Origin: Trueperaceae bacterium | GTDB taxonomy: Bacteria; Deinococcota; Deinococci; Deinococcales; Trueperaceae | Direction: 5' to 3' | Assembly: GCA_007130355.1 (NCBI GenBank) | Contig: SLSQ01000050.1 | Location: 1 to 37,211 of the forward strand | DNA length: 37,211 bases | Part shown: positions 8,054-20,457 of the stretch, piece after piece | How the letters are laid out: each line of letters starts with the position of its first letter | Numbering within the stretch: position 1 is the first letter of the stretch | Notes under the pieces: model-generated | Database searches by the model: none | What the model saw: only the letters and a program-made list of their open reading frames with translations | What the model was told of the DNA's origin: nothing | Translations under genes and position numbers: made by a program

Positions 8054-8130
8054 CGGGGTGTAGCGCAGCCTGGTAGCGCACTTGACTGGGGGTCAAGTGG
8101 TCGCTGGTTCAAATCCAGTCACCCCGACCA
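8054..8130 (+). tRNA. tRNA-Pro (anticodon GGG), encoded CCA
   Basis: 77 nt. Acceptor CGGGGTG/CACCCCG, anticodon arm CTTGA-CTGGGGG-TCAAG, T arm GCTGG-TTCAAAT-CCAGT (with one mismatch), then ACCA. Confidence 0.95.
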
Positions 8131-8159
8131 ACGACGGCCGTCCCCCACGGCCTTGGCGA

Positions 8160-8195
8160 CGTGCAACGACCCCGTTCCGGCGGGGTCGCTGCACG
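8160..8195 (+). terminator. Long hairpin (14 of 15 bp) downstream of tRNA-Pro and upstream of kaiB
   Basis: CGTGCAACGACCCCG-TTCCGG-CGGGGTCGCTGCACG. There is no U-tract. Confidence 0.55.
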
Positions 8196-8258
8196 TGGCG
8201 CGTCGTGCTCCGGCCCCGTCCGACGTACGCGCGTCGTGGGGCGTGGTACGGCTGGAGC

Positions 8259-8561
8259 GTGCCGTCGTTCCGGTTCGAGCTGTACGTCGCAGGCGATGCG
8301 CCCCGGTCCCGCCTGGCGATCCGGGCGCTGACGGACCTCTGCGAGGAACACCTTCCCGGACGCTACGAACTGTCCGTGATCGACGTGACCGAACACCCGG
8401 AGCTCGCCGAGCGCGCCCACGTCCTGGCGACGCCGACGCTGCTGCGGCTGAGCCCGACGCCGCGGGTCCGGATCATCGGCGATCTCCGGCTGACCGCGAA
8501 GGTGCTGGCGGGCCTCGGCCTCGACGGCGCGACCGCGAACGACGATGGGGAGGTACCGTGA
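8259..8561 (+). CDS. kaiB: KaiB-like circadian clock/timer protein
   Basis: MPSFRFELYVAGDAPRSRLAIRALTDLCEEHLPGRYELSVIDVTEHPELAERAHVLATPTLLRLSPTPRVRIIGDLRLTAKVLAGLGLD carries the KaiB hallmarks LYVAG, VIDV, ILATPTL-like and RRIIGDL-like. Confidence 0.93.
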   Translation: MPSFRFELYVAGDAPRSRLAIRALTDLCEEHLPGRYELSVIDVTEHPELAERAHVLATPTLLRLSPTPRVRIIGDLRLTAKVLAGLGLDGATANDDGEVP

Positions 8562-10090
8562 GCGACCGAGCAGCACCGGACCGTACGTCCGCCCGGCGAT
8601 CGCCCAGCGGCATCCCTGGGCTCGACCTCGTGACCAAGGGCGGCTTGCCCGCCGGACGGTCGGTGGTCGTGGCCGGTACTTCCGGGAGCGGCAAGACCGT
8701 GTTCGCGTCCCAGTTCCTCTCGGCCGGGATCCGCGACCACGACGAGCCCGGCGTGTTCGTCACCTGCGAGGAGCCGCCGGCCGGGATCCGGGACAACGTC
8801 GCGAGCTTCGGGTGGGACGTCGCCCGCTGGGAGCGGGACGGCGCCTGGCGCTTCGTCGACGCCACCCGTCAGCTCGACGGCATGCCGGTCCACGCCGGCG
8901 GCTACGACCTGACGGCGCTGCTGGCCCGGATCGAGGACGCCGTCGCCCGCGTCGGGGCACGCCGCGTCGTCGTCGACTCCCTGGACGCCCTCTTCACGCA
9001 GTTCGCGGGCGACGCCACCTTCCGGCACGAGCTGCACCGCGTTCTCGGCCTGCTGAACTCGTTGGGCGTGACCACCGTGCTCACCGCCGAGCGGGACCAC
9101 GACTACGGACCCAACTCCCGGCGCGGGGTCGAGGAGTTCGTCGCCGACAACCTGATCCTGCTCCGCAACGTCCTGAGCTCGGAGCGTCGTCGGCGCTCGC
9201 TCGAAGTGGTGAAGTTCCGCGGCGCGACGCACGATCGGGGCGAGTTCGGGTTCTCGATCACCCCGGACGGGATCTCGGTCATTCCCCATCTCGACATCCG
9301 GGACGACCGCGCGATGTCGGTCGAGCGCGCGTCGCTGGGGAACGCCGACCTCGACGCCATGTGCGGCGGCGGCGTCTTCCGGGATTCGGTGACGCTCGTG
9401 TCGGGCGCGGCCGGCAGCGGCAAGACGCTGCTCACGGCCTCGTTCGTGGCGGCGGGCGTCGCGGCGGGCGAACGGTGCCTGGTGTTCGCCTTCGAGGAAC
9501 GTCGCGAGCAGTGGCACCGCAACGCGCAGGGCTGGGGCTTCGACTTCGTCCGAATGGAGCGGGACGGCCTGCTCGACATCGTGAGCGACTACCCCGAGGT
9601 CGCGACCCTCGAGGACCACCTGGTGGCGATCACGTCGGCGATCGAGGCGTTCGGACCGCAGCGCGTGGCCGTCGACAGCCTTTCGGCGCTCGAGCGCGTG
9701 GCCACTCCGGACGCGTTCCGCAAGTTCGCCGTGAGCCTCAGCGCCTACCTGAAGCACCACGGGATCACCAGCCTGTTGACGTCGACCACGCCCACCTTCC
9801 TCGGTGGCGCGTCGCACACCGAGGCCCACCTGTCGACGGTGACCGACCTGATCATCCTGCTGCGCCACGTCGAGGTCGGCGGAGCGCTGCAGCGGGGCCT
9901 GACGGTCCTCAAGATGCGGGGGTCCCGCCACGACCACGACGTCCGCGCGTTCTCGGTGGACGCGCACGGGATGCATCTGGGAGCTCCGTACGACCGCACC
10001 TTCGGCCTGCTGGAGGACGGGCCGAGCGCGCACCCGCGCACGACCCCCGACGGATCCAGGGCGCCGGAGGCGGACGAACCTGATCCATGA
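8558..10090 (+). CDS. kaiC: KaiC-like double P-loop ATPase/autokinase
   Basis: GTG overlaps the kaiB stop (GTGA). CI Walker A is GTSGSGKT with CEE; CII Walker A is GAAGSGKT with FEE. The phosphosite segment SHTEAHLSTVTDLIILLRHVE and KMRGSRHDHDVR are present. Confidence 0.94.
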   Translation: MSDRAAPDRTSARRSPSGIPGLDLVTKGGLPAGRSVVVAGTSGSGKTVFASQFLSAGIRDHDEPGVFVTCEEPPAGIRDNVASFGWDVARWERDGAWRFVDATRQLDGMPVHAGGYDLTALLARIEDAVARVGARRVVVDSLDALFTQFAGDATFRHELHRVLGLLNSLGVTTVLTAERDHDYGPNSRRGVEEFVADNLILLRNVLSSERRRRSLEVVKFRGATHDRGEFGFSITPDGISVIPHLDIRDDRAMSVERASLGNADLDAMCGGGVFRDSVTLVSGAAGSGKTLLTASFVAAGVAAGERCLVFAFEERREQWHRNAQGWGFDFVRMERDGLLDIVSDYPEVATLEDHLVAITSAIEAFGPQRVAVDSLSALERVATPDAFRKFAVSLSAYLKHHGITSLLTSTTPTFLGGASHTEAHLSTVTDLIILLRHVEVGGALQRGLTVLKMRGSRHDHDVRAFSVDAHGMHLGAPYDRTFGLLEDGPSAHPRTTPDGSRAPEADEPDP

Positions 10091-10935
10091 GCCGACGGAC
10101 CGATGCCCCCGGCCCCGCGCAACTCAGGGCCATCTACCAGCGGATGACGGACGGCATCCTCATCGTGGGCGACGACGGCACCATTCTGGCGGCCAACCCT
10201 GCGGCGCGGCGCATGCTCCCCGACGGTGGATCCGGGCCGACCGGCGCCGTCTTCGGCTTTCCCATCGCCGACCGGAACGCCGTCGTGATCGAGCTCCTCG
10301 GCGCGGGCGGCAGGGTGCGGACCGCGGAGATGCGCGTGTCGACCCTCGACTGGCACGGCCGGCCGGCCCGGCTCCTGATCCTGCGCGACATCACCGAACA
10401 GACGGAACTGATGCACCGGCTGCACCTCGCGGCCAACTACGATCCGGTCACCGGCCTGCCGAACCGGCTCCTCTTCGAGGAGTACATCGGCCAGGCGATC
10501 CGCGAGGCGCGCCGCCACGGCCATCGGGTCGGCCTGCTGTTCGTCGACTTCGACGGCTTCAAGCGCGTCAACGACACCTTCGGGCACGACGTCGGCGACC
10601 TCCTGCTCCGTCGGATCGGACGCCGGCTGCACCGGGCGCTGCGAGAGGGGGACAGCGTGGCGCGCTTCGCCGGCGACGAGTTCCTGATCACGCTGACGCA
10701 GGTGAAGGACGTGCACGAGGCGAGCGTCGTCGCCGCCAAGGTGCTCGCGGCGTTCGAGGCTCCCTTCGAACTGGACGAGCACACCGTCGCCACCACGGCG
10801 AGCATCGGCGTCGCCTTCTTTCCCGACGACGCGGCGGACGCCTCGGAGCTGCTCCGTCGCGCCGACGGCGCCATGTACCGCGCCAAGGCCGAGGGCGGAG
10901 ATCGGTTCCGGACCTGTCTCGCCTCCGACGAATGA
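10087..10935 (+). CDS. PAS-GGDEF diguanylate cyclase (AGDEF variant, RxxD I-site)
   Basis: ATG overlaps the kaiC stop (ATGA). N-terminal PAS domain. GGDEF domain has DPVTGLPNRLLFEEYI, DFDGFKRVNDTFGHDVGD and REGDSVARFAGDEF. Confidence 0.93.
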   Translation: MSRRTDAPGPAQLRAIYQRMTDGILIVGDDGTILAANPAARRMLPDGGSGPTGAVFGFPIADRNAVVIELLGAGGRVRTAEMRVSTLDWHGRPARLLILRDITEQTELMHRLHLAANYDPVTGLPNRLLFEEYIGQAIREARRHGHRVGLLFVDFDGFKRVNDTFGHDVGDLLLRRIGRRLHRALREGDSVARFAGDEFLITLTQVKDVHEASVVAAKVLAAFEAPFELDEHTVATTASIGVAFFPDDAADASELLRRADGAMYRAKAEGGDRFRTCLASDE

Positions 10936-11074: not shown

Positions 11075-12043
11075 ATGTTCTCGCACATCCTGGTTCCACT
11101 CGACGGGTCGAAGCTCGCGGAACGCGTGCTTCCGCACGTCCGCGCGTTCGCTCGCCTGAACGGCGCCCGCGTCACCCTCGCCCACGTCCTCGAACCGCCC
11201 ACCCTGGCCGGTCGGCGCGAGCCGACCGATCCGGTCCGGTGGCAACTCGCGGCGCACGAGGCCGAGCGGTACCTCGCCGACGTGCGCGACCGGCTCGGGA
11301 GCGACGTCTCTTCGGCCGAGTGCCGGATGTTCGAGGGGCGAACGGCGTCCAACATCGTCGGGTTCGCCCAGTCGGAAGCGGTCGACCTGATCGCGCTCGG
11401 CAGCCACGGCGAGGGCGGCCTGACGGGCTGGAACCTCGGCGCGACCGTGCACAGCGTCGCGCTGCACGCCCGAACGAGCGTGCTGATGGTGCGTGCCTAC
11501 GGGGCCGCCCCGAGCGCGGACGCACCGTCGCGCTACCGGCGCCTGCTGGTCCCGCTCGACGGCTCGCGCCGTGCCGAGATCGTCCTGCCGACCGTCCACG
11601 GACTCGCCGACGGCCACCGGTGCCGTCTGATGCTGGCGCACGTCGTCGAGCGCGCACCCAGCGCGAGCCGCTTGCCGCTTCCGGAAGCGGAAGCGGGCCT
11701 CGAGCGACGGTTCCTCGAGATGCGGCGACGGCGAGCCGAGCGGTACCTCGCCACGGTCCGAGAAGAACTTGCGGGCGTCGGCCACGACGTGGACGCGCGC
11801 ACGGAGATCGACGGCGACACCGTCGCCCGGCTCCACGACCTGGCGGACGCCGAAGACGCCGATCTCGTCGTCGTCAGCGCCCACGGCGCGTCCGAGAGCC
11901 ACCGGTGGCCGTTCGGCAGTTCGGTGCTGAACCTCCTCGTGTACGGCACCACGACGCTCCTCGTGGTCCAGGACCTGCACGGGCACGAACTGGTGCCCAG
12001 CGCCGCAGAGATCGCGGCCCAGGAACGGCACGGCCACGGATGA
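11075..12043 (+). CDS. Tandem universal stress protein (two UspA domains)
   Basis: Shine-Dalgarno GGAGGGG. MFSHILVPLDGSKLAERVLPHVRAFA and YRRLLVPLDGSRRAEIVLPTVHGLA repeats, with Usp nucleotide-loop patterns GSHG-N9-GA and SAHG-N9-GSS. Confidence 0.92.
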   Translation: MFSHILVPLDGSKLAERVLPHVRAFARLNGARVTLAHVLEPPTLAGRREPTDPVRWQLAAHEAERYLADVRDRLGSDVSSAECRMFEGRTASNIVGFAQSEAVDLIALGSHGEGGLTGWNLGATVHSVALHARTSVLMVRAYGAAPSADAPSRYRRLLVPLDGSRRAEIVLPTVHGLADGHRCRLMLAHVVERAPSASRLPLPEAEAGLERRFLEMRRRRAERYLATVREELAGVGHDVDARTEIDGDTVARLHDLADAEDADLVVVSAHGASESHRWPFGSSVLNLLVYGTTTLLVVQDLHGHELVPSAAEIAAQERHGHG

Positions 12044-15000
12044 GCCACCACGACCGGGCCTCGGGGGACGACGGCCCGGCACGCGACGCACCGCCCGAGG
12101 AGGCCGGAAGGGCGCGCGCGACCGCCCACCCGGTCGTGGCGCGACCGCGCCGTGCGCACCGGGCCGTCCGCCGGTCGGCGCCCCTCCGCGAGCGAATCCG
12201 TGCCGTGTTCGACGCCCTTCCGGTCGAGCCGTCCGCCCTGTCCTCGCGCACGCAGTGGCTCCTCGACAACGACTACCTGATCCTGCGGGCCCTGCGTCAG
12301 ACCGAGGACGACATGCCGCGGGCCTACTACGCGACGCTGCCCACGCTGGCGAACGGCACCCCGCGGGTCGAGGCGCTCGCGGGCGCGATCGTGGCGTGGA
12401 GCGAGCACCGGCTGGACCTGGCGCGGGTACGCCGCTTCGTGGAGGGACACCAGGAGGTGGCGCCGCTCACCCTCGGGGAGCTGTGGGCGCTGCCCACCTT
12501 CCTGCGGATCGTGGCGCTCGAATCGCTCGCCGAAGCGGCTCCGAACGCGCACGAGGCGGCCCGGGTCGAGGTCGAACACGACGAGACGCTGCCGGCGACG
12601 ATCCTGTCCCTGCACGCGCTCGACACGCACGATTGGACCGCGTTCGTGGAGGCCACGAGCCTCATCGAACGTCGCCTCCGCCAGGATCCGGCGGGAGCGT
12701 ACCTCCGCATGGACGAAGCGACGCGCGACCGCTACCGAGCGACCATCGAACGGCTCGCCGTGCGCTCCGGCCGCAGCGAGGAGGCGGTCGCGGCGGAAGC
12801 CGTGGCCCTGGCGAGGTCGGCGGCCGCCCGACCGGACGGGCGCCCCGAACGCGCGCACGTGGGGGCGTACCTGATCGGGTCGGCCGTATCGGAGTTCGAG
12901 CGGACGGTGGGCGCCCCGCCGACGCTCCGCATGCACCTCGAGCGTGGCGCGCGCCGCTGGGCGGCGCCCCTGTACGCGGCGGCCACGTCGCTCCTCGCCG
13001 TCCTCCTGATCGCGGCGACGACGGCCGTCGCGCTCCGTTGGGGCGCGCGCGTCGAGGCGCTGGCCCTGACGGCCGCCGTGGCGGTCCCGGCGTGGGTCGC
13101 GGCGGAGGCCGCGCTGCGCCGGCTGGTGACGCACCTCCTCCCGCCCACGCGGCTTCCGAAGCTCGAGCTTCGCGCCGGCGTGCCGCCCGACGCCCGCACG
13201 CTGGTCGCCGTGCCGGCGCTGTTCACGAGCGAAGCGGGGATCCACGATCTGTTCGCGAGGATCGAGCGGCACTACCTGGGACACCGCGATCCGCGTCTCG
13301 CCTTCGTGGTCCTGGGCGACGTGCCCGACGCCGCCGACCGGGTCGTGCCCGAGGACGCCGCCCTGCTGGACCGGGCCGAGGCCGAACTCGCCGCGCTCCG
13401 GGCCCGGCATCCCGAGGGGCGGTTCCTGCTGCTGACGCGGGAGCGGCGCTGGAACGCGTCCGAGGGCGTCTGGATGGGCTGGGAGCGCAAGCGCGGCAAG
13501 CTCACCGAACTGAACCGGCTGATCGTGCACGGCGTGCGCGGCGGCTTCCTGTTCCACGGCGACCGCGCCGAAGCGTTCGCCGGGTTCCCGTTCGTGATCA
13601 CGTTGGACGCCGATACGGTGCTTCCCCCAGGCAGCGCCTTCCGCCTGATCGGCACCCTCGCGCACCCCCTGAACCGGGCTTCGTTCGACGCGGCGAACCG
13701 TCTGCGGCACGGCTTCACGATCCTGCAGCCCCGGATCGAGGCCCACCCCGACGATGCCGACCGGACCCGGTTCGCACGGCTCTTCTCGCACGGCCGAACC
13801 GTCGATCTGTACGCGCACGCGGTGTCCGAGCCGTACATGGACCTGTTCGGCGAAGGGATCTACGCCGGGAAGGGCATCTACGACGTCGCGGCGTTCGAAC
13901 GCACGGTCGGCGACGTTCCTCCGGAGAACGCGATCCTCAGCCACGACCTGCTCGAGGGCGGGCTGGGCCGCGCGGGCCTCGTGAGCGACGTCGTCGTGCT
14001 CGAGAGCCAACCCCAGCACTACCTCGCCCACGCGCGGCGGCTGCACCGGTGGATCCGGGGCGACTGGCAGCTCCTCCCCTGGGCCGGCCGGCGGGTGCCC
14101 GGCCCCGAAGGACGCGTGCCCAATCCGTTGAGCCATACGGCACGATGGGTGCTTCGGCAGAACCTGGTGCGCAGCCTGCACCCTCCGTCCCTGCTGGCGC
14201 TGTTCGTCGTGGGGTGGACCGTCGCGCCGGGTCCGGCGTGGGCCTGGACCGGGCTCGCGCTCGCCCTCTCGGCCGCACCGTTGCTGCAGGTACCCCGGGC
14301 CCTCGTGCGCCTGGCGCGGCCCCGTCGCGCGGCCCGGCTCCCGCACGCCGCGGATCGGGACCTGCTCCGCTGGGCGGTCGACCTCGCCTTCCTCGCCCAC
14401 GCCGCCTGGGTGGCCGCGGCCGCCGTGACGACCACCCTCTGGCGCCTGCGAGTCTCGCGCCGGCACCTGCTGCGCTGGACGGAGTCGTCGCAGGACGCGC
14501 GGGACGCCTCGCGTCGCCGGAACGCGCTCGCACGCTGGCGTGCCATGAGCGCCGCCCCCCTCGCCGCCACGGTCGTGGGCGCGCTGATGCTCGGGGCGCG
14601 CCCCGAAGCGTGGCCGGTCGCCGTCCCGTTCCTGCTCGCCTGGGCCCTCTCCCCCCAGCTCGCGTACCTCCTGGATCGTCCCGTCCCGATCCAGGACCGG
14701 GCGCTGACCCCGGAACGGCGGCGCTGGCTGGCCACGATCGCGCGGAGGACCTGGCTCTACTTCGAACGGTTCATCGGGCCGGACGATCACTGGCTCCCGC
14801 CGGACCACTTCCAGGAGTCGCCGCGCGGCGAGGTCGCGCACCGCACCTCCCCCACGAACGTCGGGCTGCTGCTCGCGACCACCGTCGGCGCCCACGATGC
14901 GGGCTACCTGGGGGCGCGCGACCTGCTGCTCCGCCTCGGCAACACGTTCGCGACGCTGGACCGGCTGGAACGCCACCGCGGCCACTTCCTCAACTGGTAC

Positions 15001-18000
15001 GACACCCGCACCCTCCGGCCGCTGCACCCGAAGTACGTCTCGACGGTCGACAGCGGCAACCTCCTCGGCCTCCTCGTGGTGGTGCGGCAGGCGTGCCTCG
15101 AGGTCCCGGACGGCACGGTGCTGCGCTGGCGCCGGTTCGACGGCCTCCGCACCCTCGCGGACCTCCTGAAGGAAACGGTGGAGACGCTCGAGGACGACGG
15201 CGAACTCACGCGCTCGATCGTCGCCTTCCGGGAGCGGATCGACCGGACCGAAGGCCGGCCGGAGCGGTGGTCGCCGCTCGTCGACGAGCTGGCGTCGGAG
15301 GCCCTGCCCGAGCTCGAGCGGACCCTCCTGGAGCGCGTGCGTACCGCGGCCGGCGGCGTCGGGCACGAACGACTCGCCGACCTCGGCATCTGGTTGGGGC
15401 GCCTGCAGCAGCAACTGGACACGATGCGGGACGGACGCGACGCCCTGCTCCCGTGGCTCCGGCCCGACGCCCGCGTGTCGGCGCTCGATCCGGTCGTGGA
15501 CGAGATTCCGCTGCAGCTCGCCTTCCGCGACCTGCCCGCGGCGTACCGGACGATCCGCGAGGCGTTGGACGCGCTCGCACCGGCGAACGCCGTGGAGTCC
15601 GCACGCCGGACGCGCTTGCGCTCAGCGCTGGACGCGGCCGACGAGGTCGCCGAGCGTATCCGTCGGGACGCCGATGCGGTCGCGGCGAACGCCGAGAGGA
15701 TCCTGCAGGAGACGCACGTCGACTTCCTGTTCGACACGGAACGAAAGCTGTTCCGCATCGGCTACCACGTCGACGACGACCGCGAGGACGTGCACGCGTA
15801 CGACCTGCTGGCCTCCGAGGCCCGCATCGCCTCCTTCATGGCGATCGCCCTCGACCGGGTGGCGCCCGAGCATTGGCTCCACCTCGGTCGGCCGACGGCG
15901 CTGGTGGACGGTCGGCAGGTGCTCCTGTCGTGGAGCGGCACGATGTTCGAGTACCTGATGCCGACCCTGTTCATGCGCACCCCCGAGCGCAGCCTCCTGG
16001 CGCACGCCTGCCGCACGGCGATCGACCGCCAGATCGCCTTCGGCAGGGCGCACGGCGTGCCCTGGGGAACCTCCGAATCGGGCTACGCGCGCACGGACGC
16101 GCAGGAGAACTATCAGTACCGTGCCTTCGGCGTGCCCGACCTCGCCCTCTCCCACGAGGCGACCGGCCGTCAGGTCGTCGCGCCGTACGCGACGCTGATG
16201 GCGCTGCCGTGGACGCCGCACGAAGCGGCCGAGAACCTCGAGCGGCTGGTCGCGGCCGGAGCCATGGGGCGCTACGGCTTCTACGAGGCCCTGGACTACG
16301 CGCACGCGCGTCTGGCGCCCGGCGAGCGCTACACCGTGGTGCGGTCGTTCATGGTCCACCACCACGGGATGGCCTTCATGGCGCTCTGCAACCTGCTGCA
16401 CGACGGCCGCTTCGTCGAACGCTTCCACGCCGACGCACGGGTCCGGACGCACGAGGTGCTGCTCTACGAGGGCCTCGCGCCGGGCCCGCCCGACGAACGG
16501 ATCGAACGGGACGAACGCACGGAGGATCCGCGACCGCGCTTCCACGCTCCGCCCGTCGAGCCTTGGGAGGTACCGGTCCGCACCCGCAGCCCCGAGGTGC
16601 ACGCCCTCTCCAACGGCCGCTACACCCTCTTCATGAGCAACTCGGGAGCCGGCGCCAGCCGCTGGGAAGGACTGGACCTGACGCGCTGGCGCAGCGACCC
16701 GACCTGCGACGCGTGGGGCCAGTGGATCTACGTCCAGGACCTCGACCTGGACCGGACCTGGTCGGCGACCCCGAAACCGGTCGACGCCCCAGGCCAGCAC
16801 CCGCGGGTGACGTTCCATCCCCACCAGATCACCTTCCACCGTCGGGACGGGGACGTGACCACGCGCCTCGAGGTGATCGTCCCGCCCCAGGACGACGCGG
16901 AGATCCGCCGCGTCACCCTCGTCAACCACGGGGACTCGGTCCGACGCCTGGCCGTGACCAGCTACGGCGAGGTCGCCCTGGCCCCGCACGGCGACGACCT
17001 GCGCCATCCCGCGTTCGCCAAGATGTTCGTCGAGTGCTCGTGGCGCGCCGAGGACGACGGGCTGCTGTTCCGCCGTCGCCTGCGCAGCACGACCGACGCG
17101 CCCGCCTACCTCGTCCACCGTCTGGTCCACGATCGCGGCGCGCACCCGCCGCCGGAGATCGAGACCGACCGGGAACGGTTCCTCGGCCGTCACGGCCACC
17201 CAGGGGATCCCGCAGGACTGCGCGCGACCCGACTCTCGGGCACGCTCGGCGCGACGCTCGATCCGGTGTTCGCCCTGCGCACGCGGGTCGAGATCCCGGC
17301 CCACGCCACCGTGCGCCTGTCGTTCGTGACGGCGGCCGGTGGTTCGGCCCGCACCGTGCTCGACGTAGCGCACCGCTACGGACGCCGGGACCGGATCGAG
17401 GCGGCCTTCCTGGACGCCGCCGCGCGGCAGGGCCAGGTGGCGGCCCAGGTGGGGCTCGACGCGGCCGAGTCGGCCAGCGCGGACCGGCTCCTCTCCCGCC
17501 TGCTCTACCCCGACGCCGCGACACGCTCCGACGCCGCGATCCTGCGGAGCAACGTCTCGGGCCCGTCGGGCCTGTGGGTGCACGGCATCTCCGGCGACCA
17601 CCCGATCGTGCTGCTGCGCCTCCGTACGGAGGAGGACGTCGCCACCGTCCGCACCCTCCTGAAGATCCATCGCCTCTGGCGCAGCCAACGCTTCGTCGTG
17701 GACCTCGTGGTCCTCAACGAACTGGACCGTGGGTACGTCCAGACCACGCGCGACGCGGTCCGGCGGCTCGTCGTCGCCGCTGGCGACGAGGTCTGGCAGG
17801 ACCGGCCCGGCGGCATCTTCCTGCTGTCGTCGGCGCAGTTGGACGAGGCCGGCCGGGTCCTGCTCCAGTCGGCGGCCCGGGTGGTCGTGAACGTCGGCGA
17901 CGGATTCGTGCTCGCTCCGTTCCCGAGCGCCCCGGAGGACGGCCTGCCGGCCCTCGCTCCGTCGCACCACCGGCCCGACGCCGCGCCGGACACGCCTCCG

Positions 18001-20457
18001 CTCCCGCGTCCGACCGACCTTCTGTGCGACAACGGCTGGGGCGGCTTCTCGCCGGACGGCCGCGCCTACGTGACCTACCTGCAGGAGCAGGCGACCCCCG
18101 CGCCCTGGATCAACGTCCTGGCCAACCCGGACTTCGGCTGCCTGATCAGCGAGTCCGGTTCCAGCACGACCTGGTCGGCCAACAGCGGCGAGAACCGGCT
18201 GTCGCCGTGGTCCAACGACCCGGTGGCCGATCCCAGCGGCGAGGTGCTCTACCTGCGCGACGAGGAGACCACCGAGACGTGGACGCCCACCCCGCAGCCG
18301 ATGCCCGGCGGCCTTCCGTACCTCGTGCGCCACGGGCAGGGACGCACCACCTTCGAGCACCGCAGCCACGGCCTCGATCAGCGCATGGAGGTGTTCGTGC
18401 TGGACGACGCTCCGGTCAAGGTCGTCCGCCTGCGCCTCTCGAACCTGCTGACGCGGCCGCGACGCATCACGGCGACGTACTACCTCGAGTGGGTGCTCGG
18501 CCATGCGCGCGAGACCAGCGCCACGAGCGTGATTCCCGAATACGACGCGGACCTGGGGGCGCTGCTGGCGCGCAATCCGTTCCGCGACGCCTACGCCGGG
18601 CAGGTCGCGTTCCTGGCCGGGAACCGGAGCCCGCACGGCGTCACCTCCGACCGTCGGGAGTTCCTCGGTCGCGACGGCAGCACGCGACGGCCGGCGGCGC
18701 TGCGGCGGATCGGCCTGTCGGGCCGCGTCGAGGCGGGAAGCGATCCGTGCGCCGCGCTGCAGCTCCACGTCGACCTGGCGGCCGGCGCGAGCGACGAGGT
18801 CGTGTTCCTCGTGGGGGTGGGCGAGGACCGCGAGGAGGCGAAGGAGCTCGTGCGTCGGCACCGCAGCAGCGAGGCGGTGGCCCTGGGCCTCGAGCGGGTG
18901 ACGGAGGCCTGGGAGCGACGTCTCGGGACGATCCACGTGCGGACGCCCGACCCGTCGATGGACCTGATGCTGAACGGTTGGCTGCTGTACCAGAGCCTCG
19001 CCTGCCGCATGTGGGGCCGGACCGGGTTCTACCAGTCGAGCGGAGCGTTCGGGTTCCGCGACCAGCTGCAGGACTCGATGGCGCTGCTGCACGTCGATCC
19101 GGCCACCGCCCGCGCGCAGCTGCTGGAGGCGGCGCGCCACCAGTTCGAGGAGGGCGACGTGCTGCACTGGTGGCTCCCGCACGAGGGCCGCGGCGTGCGG
19201 ACCCGCATCTCGGACGACCTGGCCTGGCTCCCGTTCGTGACGGCGCACTACGTCGACGGGAGCGGCGACGCGGCGGTCCTGGACGAACGGGTGCCGTTCC
19301 TGCACGCGCCGGAGCTCGGACCGGACGAGCACGAACGTTTCGACCGTTTCCCCGCGACGGACGAGTCGTTCCCGCTCTACGTCCACGCCTGCCGCGCCCT
19401 CGAGCGAGCCGCCACCCAGGGCGCGCACGGCCTTCCGCTGATGCAGGGAGGGGATTGGAACGACGGCATGAACCGGGTCGGGGTCGAGGGACGCGGCGAA
19501 AGCGTGTGGCTGGCCTGGTTCCTGATCGCGACCCTGGAGCGGTTCGCGCCGCTGTGCGACGCGCGCGACGAGCCGCACCGCGCCGAGCGCTACCGTGAGC
19601 AGGCGGGCGCCTACCGACGCGCCATCGAGGCGCACGCCTGGGACGGCGATTGGTACCTCCGCGCCTTCTACGACGACGGTACGCCGCTCGGCAGCCACGC
19701 GGGCGACGACGCGCGCATCGACGCCATCGCGCAGGCGTGGTCGGTGCTGGCGGGACCGACCGACCCGGAACGCAGCGCTCGGGCGATGGCCTCGGTGCAC
19801 GAGCACCTGGTGCGCGACAAGGACGGGCTGGTGCTGCTCCTGGCCCCGCCCTTCGACCGGGGTCGGCACGATCCCGGCTACATCAAGGGGTACCCGCCGG
19901 GCGTACGCGAGAACGGGGGGCAGTACACGCACGCCGCGCTCTGGTTCGCCTGGGCGTGCGCCGCGTCCGGCGACGGAGACCGGGCCCACGATCTGTTCGG
20001 TCGGCTCAACCCGCTGCGGCACGCCGCCGACGCCGCCTCGGCCGCGCGCTACCGGCTGGAGCCGTACGTCGTGGCCGCCGACGTGTACGGGGTCGCTCCG
20101 CACGCCGGCCGCGGCGGCTGGAGCTGGTACACCGGCTCGGCGGCGTGGATGTACCGGCTGGGCGTCGAGGCGATCCTCGGCCTGCGGCGCGAGGGGACGT
20201 CGCTGGCGTTCGAACCGTGCATTCCGGCGGCGTGGCCCGGCTTCGAGATCCGGTACCGCTACGGCGCCACCGAGTACCGGATCCAGGTCGTGAACCCGGA
20301 CGGGGCCACCCGCGGCGTCGTCGGGCTCGAGCTCGACGGCGTCGCTCTGCCCACCCTGCGACTGCCGCTGGTGGACGACGGCGTCGCGCGTTCGGCGATC
20401 GTGCGCATGGGCGCCTCGGGTGCGTCGGGACCGATGGGAACGGCGGGCGCGGCGTAG
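12040..20457 (+). CDS. Cyclic beta-1,2-glucan synthase-like (NdvB/ChvB type) giant glycosyltransferase/GH94 protein
   Basis: ATG overlaps the usp stop (ATGA). About 2805 aa. GT segment has VITLDADTVLPPGSAFRLIGTLAHPLN and RRLHRWIRGDWQLLPW. Duplicated glycan-binding modules each contain LSNGRYT/NSGAGASRWEGL-like or SGSSTTWSANSGENRLSPWSNDP. GH94 segment has GGDWNDGMNRVGVEGRGESVWLAWFLI and GWSWYTGSAAWMYRLGVEAILGLRREG. Confidence 0.93.
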   Translation: MSHHDRASGDDGPARDAPPEEAGRARATAHPVVARPRRAHRAVRRSAPLRERIRAVFDALPVEPSALSSRTQWLLDNDYLILRALRQTEDDMPRAYYATLPTLANGTPRVEALAGAIVAWSEHRLDLARVRRFVEGHQEVAPLTLGELWALPTFLRIVALESLAEAAPNAHEAARVEVEHDETLPATILSLHALDTHDWTAFVEATSLIERRLRQDPAGAYLRMDEATRDRYRATIERLAVRSGRSEEAVAAEAVALARSAAARPDGRPERAHVGAYLIGSAVSEFERTVGAPPTLRMHLERGARRWAAPLYAAATSLLAVLLIAATTAVALRWGARVEALALTAAVAVPAWVAAEAALRRLVTHLLPPTRLPKLELRAGVPPDARTLVAVPALFTSEAGIHDLFARIERHYLGHRDPRLAFVVLGDVPDAADRVVPEDAALLDRAEAELAALRARHPEGRFLLLTRERRWNASEGVWMGWERKRGKLTELNRLIVHGVRGGFLFHGDRAEAFAGFPFVITLDADTVLPPGSAFRLIGTLAHPLNRASFDAANRLRHGFTILQPRIEAHPDDADRTRFARLFSHGRTVDLYAHAVSEPYMDLFGEGIYAGKGIYDVAAFERTVGDVPPENAILSHDLLEGGLGRAGLVSDVVVLESQPQHYLAHARRLHRWIRGDWQLLPWAGRRVPGPEGRVPNPLSHTARWVLRQNLVRSLHPPSLLALFVVGWTVAPGPAWAWTGLALALSAAPLLQVPRALVRLARPRRAARLPHAADRDLLRWAVDLAFLAHAAWVAAAAVTTTLWRLRVSRRHLLRWTESSQDARDASRRRNALARWRAMSAAPLAATVVGALMLGARPEAWPVAVPFLLAWALSPQLAYLLDRPVPIQDRALTPERRRWLATIARRTWLYFERFIGPDDHWLPPDHFQESPRGEVAHRTSPTNVGLLLATTVGAHDAGYLGARDLLLRLGNTFATLDRLERHRGHFLNWYDTRTLRPLHPKYVSTVDSGNLLGLLVVVRQACLEVPDGTVLRWRRFDGLRTLADLLKETVETLEDDGELTRSIVAFRERIDRTEGRPERWSPLVDELASEALPELERTLLERVRTAAGGVGHERLADLGIWLGRLQQQLDTMRDGRDALLPWLRPDARVSALDPVVDEIPLQLAFRDLPAAYRTIREALDALAPANAVESARRTRLRSALDAADEVAERIRRDADAVAANAERILQETHVDFLFDTERKLFRIGYHVDDDREDVHAYDLLASEARIASFMAIALDRVAPEHWLHLGRPTALVDGRQVLLSWSGTMFEYLMPTLFMRTPERSLLAHACRTAIDRQIAFGRAHGVPWGTSESGYARTDAQENYQYRAFGVPDLALSHEATGRQVVAPYATLMALPWTPHEAAENLERLVAAGAMGRYGFYEALDYAHARLAPGERYTVVRSFMVHHHGMAFMALCNLLHDGRFVERFHADARVRTHEVLLYEGLAPGPPDERIERDERTEDPRPRFHAPPVEPWEVPVRTRSPEVHALSNGRYTLFMSNSGAGASRWEGLDLTRWRSDPTCDAWGQWIYVQDLDLDRTWSATPKPVDAPGQHPRVTFHPHQITFHRRDGDVTTRLEVIVPPQDDAEIRRVTLVNHGDSVRRLAVTSYGEVALAPHGDDLRHPAFAKMFVECSWRAEDDGLLFRRRLRSTTDAPAYLVHRLVHDRGAHPPPEIETDRERFLGRHGHPGDPAGLRATRLSGTLGATLDPVFALRTRVEIPAHATVRLSFVTAAGGSARTVLDVAHRYGRRDRIEAAFLDAAARQGQVAAQVGLDAAESASADRLLSRLLYPDAATRSDAAILRSNVSGPSGLWVHGISGDHPIVLLRLRTEEDVATVRTLLKIHRLWRSQRFVVDLVVLNELDRGYVQTTRDAVRRLVVAAGDEVWQDRPGGIFLLSSAQLDEAGRVLLQSAARVVVNVGDGFVLAPFPSAPEDGLPALAPSHHRPDAAPDTPPLPRPTDLLCDNGWGGFSPDGRAYVTYLQEQATPAPWINVLANPDFGCLISESGSSTTWSANSGENRLSPWSNDPVADPSGEVLYLRDEETTETWTPTPQPMPGGLPYLVRHGQGRTTFEHRSHGLDQRMEVFVLDDAPVKVVRLRLSNLLTRPRRITATYYLEWVLGHARETSATSVIPEYDADLGALLARNPFRDAYAGQVAFLAGNRSPHGVTSDRREFLGRDGSTRRPAALRRIGLSGRVEAGSDPCAALQLHVDLAAGASDEVVFLVGVGEDREEAKELVRRHRSSEAVALGLERVTEAWERRLGTIHVRTPDPSMDLMLNGWLLYQSLACRMWGRTGFYQSSGAFGFRDQLQDSMALLHVDPATARAQLLEAARHQFEEGDVLHWWLPHEGRGVRTRISDDLAWLPFVTAHYVDGSGDAAVLDERVPFLHAPELGPDEHERFDRFPATDESFPLYVHACRALERAATQGAHGLPLMQGGDWNDGMNRVGVEGRGESVWLAWFLIATLERFAPLCDARDEPHRAERYREQAGAYRRAIEAHAWDGDWYLRAFYDDGTPLGSHAGDDARIDAIAQAWSVLAGPTDPERSARAMASVHEHLVRDKDGLVLLLAPPFDRGRHDPGYIKGYPPGVRENGGQYTHAALWFAWACAASGDGDRAHDLFGRLNPLRHAADAASAARYRLEPYVVAADVYGVAPHAGRGGWSWYTGSAAWMYRLGVEAILGLRREGTSLAFEPCIPAAWPGFEIRYRYGATEYRIQVVNPDGATRGVVGLELDGVALPTLRLPLVDDGVARSAIVRMGASGASGPMGTAGAA

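Follow-up and report, generated by a model that had tools for sequence, protein, structure and literature searches.

A Trueperaceae kaiB-kaiC-diguanylate cyclase operon carries a PAS domain that accompanies kaiBC across phyla

The PAS domain of the predicted diguanylate cyclase encoded behind kaiB and kaiC in a Trueperaceae genome is of a Kai-associated type, i.e. it travels with kaiBC across phyla on differing output domains. This shared domain, missed by an earlier sequence-only reading of the same DNA, is a more informative link than the theme of a GGDEF gene in synteny with kaiBC. That the operon would be a reduced form of a signalling system, KaiB-KaiC-PAS-output, that is widespread, with c-di-GMP as its output here and the PAS as the reading element, is a proposition that we regard as evenly balanced.

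The window, i.e. the whole stretch of 37,211 nucleotides that was analysed, is contig C61 of a Trueperaceae-type MAG of 2.5 Mb in 343 contigs, 80.7% complete. The features discussed below are the following:

8259 to 8561, + strand: kaiB, 100-aa KaiB, GTG start (PF07689, E=1e-23)
8558 to 8561, + strand: overlap GTGA of the kaiB stop and the kaiC start, read from the sequence, with GGGGAGG close upstream
8558 to 10090, + strand: kaiC, 510-aa double-domain KaiC, GTG start (two PF06745 domains, E=2.8e-107)
9818 to 9838, + strand: KaiC CII phosphosite codons T421 (9818-9820), S426 (9833-9835) and T427 (9836-9838), matching T426/S431/T432 in the 1u9i alignment
10087 to 10090, + strand: overlap ATGA of the kaiC stop and the dgc start, read from the sequence
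10087 to 10935, + strand: dgc, 282-aa predicted PAS-GGDEF diguanylate cyclase, ATG start (PF00990, E=7.4e-49)
10108 to 10422, + strand: Kai-associated PAS domain of dgc (residues 8-112), from genome-wide searches
10432 to 10902, + strand: GGDEF domain of dgc (residues 116-272; PF00990)
10642 to 10653, + strand: product-inhibition I-site RxxD (REGD), from the sequence; RxxD is also present in Trueperaceae relatives
10669 to 10683, + strand: active-site motif AGDEF, from the sequence

All three genes were confirmed by translation and Pfam profile search, and the two 4-nt overlaps that the sequence-only reading had described are directly legible in the DNA. Its conclusion that these overlaps make one translational unit fits the window but does not extend to the relatives, where dgc starts 1-2 nt past the kaiC stop. 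A good Shine-Dalgarno sequence (GGGGAGG) precedes kaiC, while dgc has only a distant GGAGG, which would fit re-initiation. Upstream of kaiB lies a tRNA-Pro gene (8054-8130), and a universal stress protein gene (11075-12043) stands downstream of the operon. A strong hairpin with near-complementary arms, one mismatch and no T run is found between tRNA-Pro and kaiB (8159-8196); no comparable hairpin occurs within the 200 bases that precede kaiB in three relatives (L039, L041 and L048).

The kaiB-kaiC-PAS-GGDEF trio recurs in four other Trueperaceae contigs, L038 (G017), L039 (G014), L048 (G111) and L041 (G031), the kaiC of the last being internally disrupted or mis-assembled and left out of the trees; a fifth contig, L040 (G025), ends inside kaiC. 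Identity between the window and these trio relatives is 65-69% for KaiC and 48-53% for the cyclase. At E<=1e-40 KaiC matches were obtained in 7 of 112 Deinococcota genomes, all from the family of the window. The genes flanking the trio are mostly not common to the relatives, tblastx matches in the flanks being scattered short pieces, with the exception of one GH94-type gene, inverted in L048. Chance adjacency is thus rejected, since the trio is conserved while its flanks are reshuffled, and the operon is a real and conserved unit, probably a functional one. The conserved synteny that the sequence-only reading had proposed to look for was found in Trueperaceae and also in Thioalkalivibrio. As to the flank itself, the operon is followed by a long gene (window 12058-20454) whose domains are of GH94 and glucoamylase type, and which stands inverted beside the operon in L048 (3874-7125); this gene is a possible c-di-GMP target.

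Trueperaceae KaiCs form one clade (support 100), in a class with Halorhodospira, Thioalkalivibrio, Fimbriimonadaceae and many gammaproteobacteria. Trueperaceae and Thioalkalivibrio KaiCs were joined at 80 in a quick tree and not joined in a careful one, and the PAS tree has too few columns to place the Trueperaceae trio relative to that of Thioalkalivibrio.

To follow the PAS domain we used residues 1-112 of the cyclase as query. With a threshold of E<=1e-5, each of the 22 whole genomes behind the KaiC loci, from several phyla, gave one or two matches, and in 19 of the 22 the best one lies at the kai locus (coordinates compared by hand; the exceptions are G115, G118 and G129). Among 61 genomes of Trueperaceae and relatives, the PAS was found only in G000, G014, G017 and G031, with weaker matches in G032 and G035, two Trueperaceae whose related PAS-GGDEF genes (L192 and L193) have no kaiBC alongside. 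In 399 Pseudomonadota genomes, KaiC occurs in 34, the PAS in 34 and both in 24 (Fisher p=6e-23, a value that ignores the relatedness of genomes by taking them as independent). For the KaiC class close to that of the window, the PAS is present in all 23 Pseudomonadota genomes, with the best match at the kai locus in 22. Over the Pseudomonadota genomes with KaiC, 45 of the 49 PAS matches lie within 10 kb of kaiC, 43 being downstream and 42 on the same strand.

Local domain scans showed the output genes at these loci to be PAS-HK, REC-PAS-HK-REC, PAS-GGDEF, PAS-GGDEF-EAL and PAS-REC. PAS-GGDEF is present in 14 of 24 Pseudomonadota loci of the close class, usually alongside kinases; PAS-GGDEF without a kinase in the same operon was found in Trueperaceae and Thioalkalivibrio. 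On the PAS tree, built from few columns, about six or seven changes of the GGDEF label have to be assumed, of which at least two are forced by well supported branches, so outputs were probably exchanged or recruited more than once. This distribution suggests a KaiBC timer able to serve different kinds of signalling output.

Seven PAS genomes without a KaiC match were opened (G135, G189, G190, G318, G327, G330 and G505). In G327 and G330 (L206 and L207) a KaiB gene stands directly before PAS-HK with a 4-nt overlap, read as ATGA in L206, and no KaiC was found in either genome at E<=1e-60. In G318, on short contigs, KaiB stands before PAS-GGDEF; PAS-HK occurs in G190 and G135, where the fetched stretch contains no KaiB, and G189 and G505 show other PAS arrangements. 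Several gammaproteobacterial loci carry a second KaiB immediately before the PAS-output gene. By gene order only, these loci point to KaiB as the putative partner of the PAS protein. In L162, L164 and L167 the second KaiB gene, behind kaiC, overlaps the PAS-GGDEF gene by 4 nt.

We tentatively go further, with a proposal that we hold as possible rather than probable: the PAS would be a dedicated KaiB/KaiC-reading adaptor, an interchangeable plug on histidine kinase, diguanylate cyclase and receiver modules across phyla, allowing one KaiBC timer or switch to drive different outputs, c-di-GMP alone in Trueperaceae. As to mechanism, our evenly balanced main reading is that KaiC would run, with no KaiA, a slow ATP-dependent cycle of autophosphorylation and dephosphorylation whose setting would come from ATP/ADP or another input, and that KaiB would bind KaiC when it is in one particular state. 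The PAS of the cyclase dimer would read the KaiB/KaiC state by direct contact and, via a short helical linker, switch the GGDEF dimer on or off, giving as output a slow change in c-di-GMP, with the I-site as its upper limit. Histidine kinases, alone or beside a cyclase, would receive the signal from the same PAS in relatives. That the timer would gate the cyclase is our inference.

The encoded Kai proteins themselves are intact. KaiB is full length, PF07689 spanning residues 8-87, and the solved KaiBs nearest to it include 8fwj, 5jwq and 2qke. KaiC matches the NCBIfam KaiC model PRK09302 above cut-off and aligns with Synechococcus KaiC (1u9i) over residues 16-477 (462 residues, E=1.4e-138). 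Both ATPase sites are kept, with Walker A sequences GTSGSGKT and GAAGSGKT, and the catalytic Glu pairs E71/E72 and E313/E314 align with E77/E78 and E318/E319 of 1u9i. The C-terminal tail of KaiC is short, unlike the Rhodobacter extension, and the alignment to the 568-aa chain 8dba stops at query residue 481; the KaiC2-type C-terminal extension, which makes hexamer-hexamer contacts, is thus lacking in the 510-aa window KaiC.

The sequence-only reading had noted neither kaiA nor a SasA-like kinase in the window, and this absence holds for the whole, ~81% complete genome. In it PF07688 (KaiA) has no match, a KaiA3-like C-terminal domain gives no profile match at E<=0.1, and a SasA-type kinase is absent because there is only a single KaiB-type domain; KaiA, KaiA3 and a SasA-type kinase were thus searched for and set aside. 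A convincing KaiA3-like match is also absent from the kaiBC-bearing relatives of the window genome. Many proteobacterial loci have a ~280-aa receiver protein directly before kaiB, whose C-terminal domain aligns end to end with that of KaiA, at a sub-threshold E of 0.32-0.42; KaiA3 orthologues have been published for Bradyrhizobium (PMC11372060). The window KaiC groups with a class whose proteobacterial members mostly carry such a KaiA3-like gene.

An hourglass by analogy with Rhodobacter was also considered. The KaiA-free timer reconstituted from that bacterium works only with a long extension at the C-terminus of its KaiC (PMC11372060); since the window KaiC lacks it and sits in a class in which most proteobacterial members come with a KaiA3-like gene, the analogy is unsupported. 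Of the timer-to-second-messenger module put forward by the sequence-only reading, the link from KaiBC to c-di-GMP survives as the best inference, with its conserved synteny, while the hourglass part does not.

KaiBC could also act as a stress or metabolic ATP-sensing switch instead of a timer, energy state being coupled to c-di-GMP without daily timing. We consider this unlikely, but it draws on several facts: KaiBC homologues have been implicated in the stress response in Legionella and Pseudomonas (PMC11372060), the window genome has neither KaiA nor KaiA3, and its KaiC is without an extension of the kind needed by the Rhodobacter timer. On the other hand the T/S/T phosphosites and both ATPase sites, which a slow timer needs, are kept, although they are compatible with a switch too.

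Concerning the cyclase, every kai-linked copy in Trueperaceae combines AGDEF or GGDEF with RxxD, and the AGDEF variant has been shown to be active in VCA0965, according to the available text of the article (PMC3974145). A degenerate cyclase is therefore rejected, both A-site and I-site being intact, and the predicted product of dgc probably makes c-di-GMP. An AlphaFold model from a four-sequence alignment (mean pLDDT 80.6) comprises a PAS-like domain, a helix and a GGDEF domain; in Foldseek its best solved match is the PAS-GGDEF-EAL protein PA0861, followed by other cyclases. Pfam gives a weak PAS match, at or barely over the cut-off. With 21 GGDEF domains in the window genome, the kai-linked cyclase has many counterparts; a search for PilZ receptors in this ~81% complete genome gave none. 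These last points speak against our main reading, as do the related PAS-GGDEF genes of G032 and G035 that have no kaiBC alongside.

The cyclase and its PAS may conversely lie on the input side. PAS domains are usually sensors, and this one could serve as a small-molecule sensor for a metabolic or redox signal, c-di-GMP or the drawdown of GTP then setting the state of KaiBC. This is an improbable direction in our judgement, even though manipulation of c-di-GMP moves the phase and period of the Synechococcus clock, apparently indirectly (PMC13001216), and the histidine kinase of the Rhodobacter kaiBC operon has been proposed to relay a redox signal to KaiBC (PMC5520375). In vitro, the same study saw neither the phosphorylation of KaiC nor the binding of KaiB respond consistently to c-di-GMP (PMC13001216). 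Moreover, no cofactor signature was identified in the PAS of the cyclase, and its presence on several output types agrees equally well or better with a reader on the output side.

Neighbouring genes may have shared regulation in common and nothing more, and operons often co-regulate proteins that do not touch; but an operon that only co-regulates KaiBC and the cyclase, with no functional contact between them, is very improbable here, given the family-wide conservation of the trio independent of its flanks and a PAS type that tracks kaiB/kaiC specifically across phyla despite differing output domains.

The association of kaiBC with a signalling gene is not new. According to the available text of De Luca et al. 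(2011, PMC3164672), almost every kaiC-kaiB cluster outside cyanobacteria is directly followed by a gene for a histidine kinase or a GGDEF/EAL protein, and the window operon likewise has its signalling gene immediately downstream of kaiC. It resembles those clusters, as far as that text presents them, in the clustering of kaiB and kaiC, a phosphosite-competent KaiC and a signalling gene directly downstream; it differs by its GGDEF-only cyclase, its occurrence in Deinococcota, its 4-nt overlaps and the lack of a kinase. The shared PAS is not described in the available text, and no description of a Kai-linked PAS or of the Trueperaceae operon was found in the literature searched.

Rhodopseudomonas palustris and Rhodobacter sphaeroides have kaiC-kaiB-PAS/HK operons (PMC4794148; PMC11372060), which share with the window a KaiA-less KaiBC and a PAS signalling protein in the operon. 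R. sphaeroides KaiC is of the KaiC2 type, with the C-terminal extension needed by the KaiA-free timer, and the output is a kinase; the window differs in these respects. The KaiA3-KaiB3-KaiC3 systems (PMC11372060, including Bradyrhizobium) are close in that the loci nearest to the window KaiC mostly have an upstream REC protein with a KaiA-aligning C-terminus, whereas the window genome has no KaiA3-like gene and the match of the REC protein to KaiA is sub-threshold here. With the cyanobacterial SasA/CikA-RpaA pathway the likeness may be one of analogy, a KaiB/KaiC state being read by an output protein; in contrast, the window has no KaiB-domain kinase, and a second messenger would take the place of phosphotransfer. 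The kaiB-kaiC-PAS-PAS-GGDEF operons of Thioalkalivibrio (L051 and L052) are alike as trios with 4-nt overlaps and no operon kinase, but carry an extra PAS domain.

A PAS that tracks kaiB/kaiC while its output domain changes is a concrete, small candidate reader of the KaiBC state outside cyanobacteria, and the three-gene operons of Trueperaceae and Thioalkalivibrio offer the simplest setting for testing it, with no more than three proteins, ATP and GTP involved and a product that can be measured. If the proposal is true, Kai timers would be linked directly to the main bacterial lifestyle second messenger.

Other KaiC genes occur in the family. A second double-domain KaiC of the window genome (G000:C67; L042 3056-8301) overlaps an upstream GGDEF-EAL gene by ATGA, with no KaiB detected beside it within the stretch read. 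Other Trueperaceae (L043 and L044) have a different, longer KaiC in kaiC-kaiB-GGDEF clusters, and the GGDEF gene of L043 also matches PAS and EAL. The downstream protein of L043 and L044 has an xAIRSxxxDAxVV-like N-terminal motif also present on kinases beside KaiC elsewhere, so output exchange may have happened in the longer-KaiC class too.
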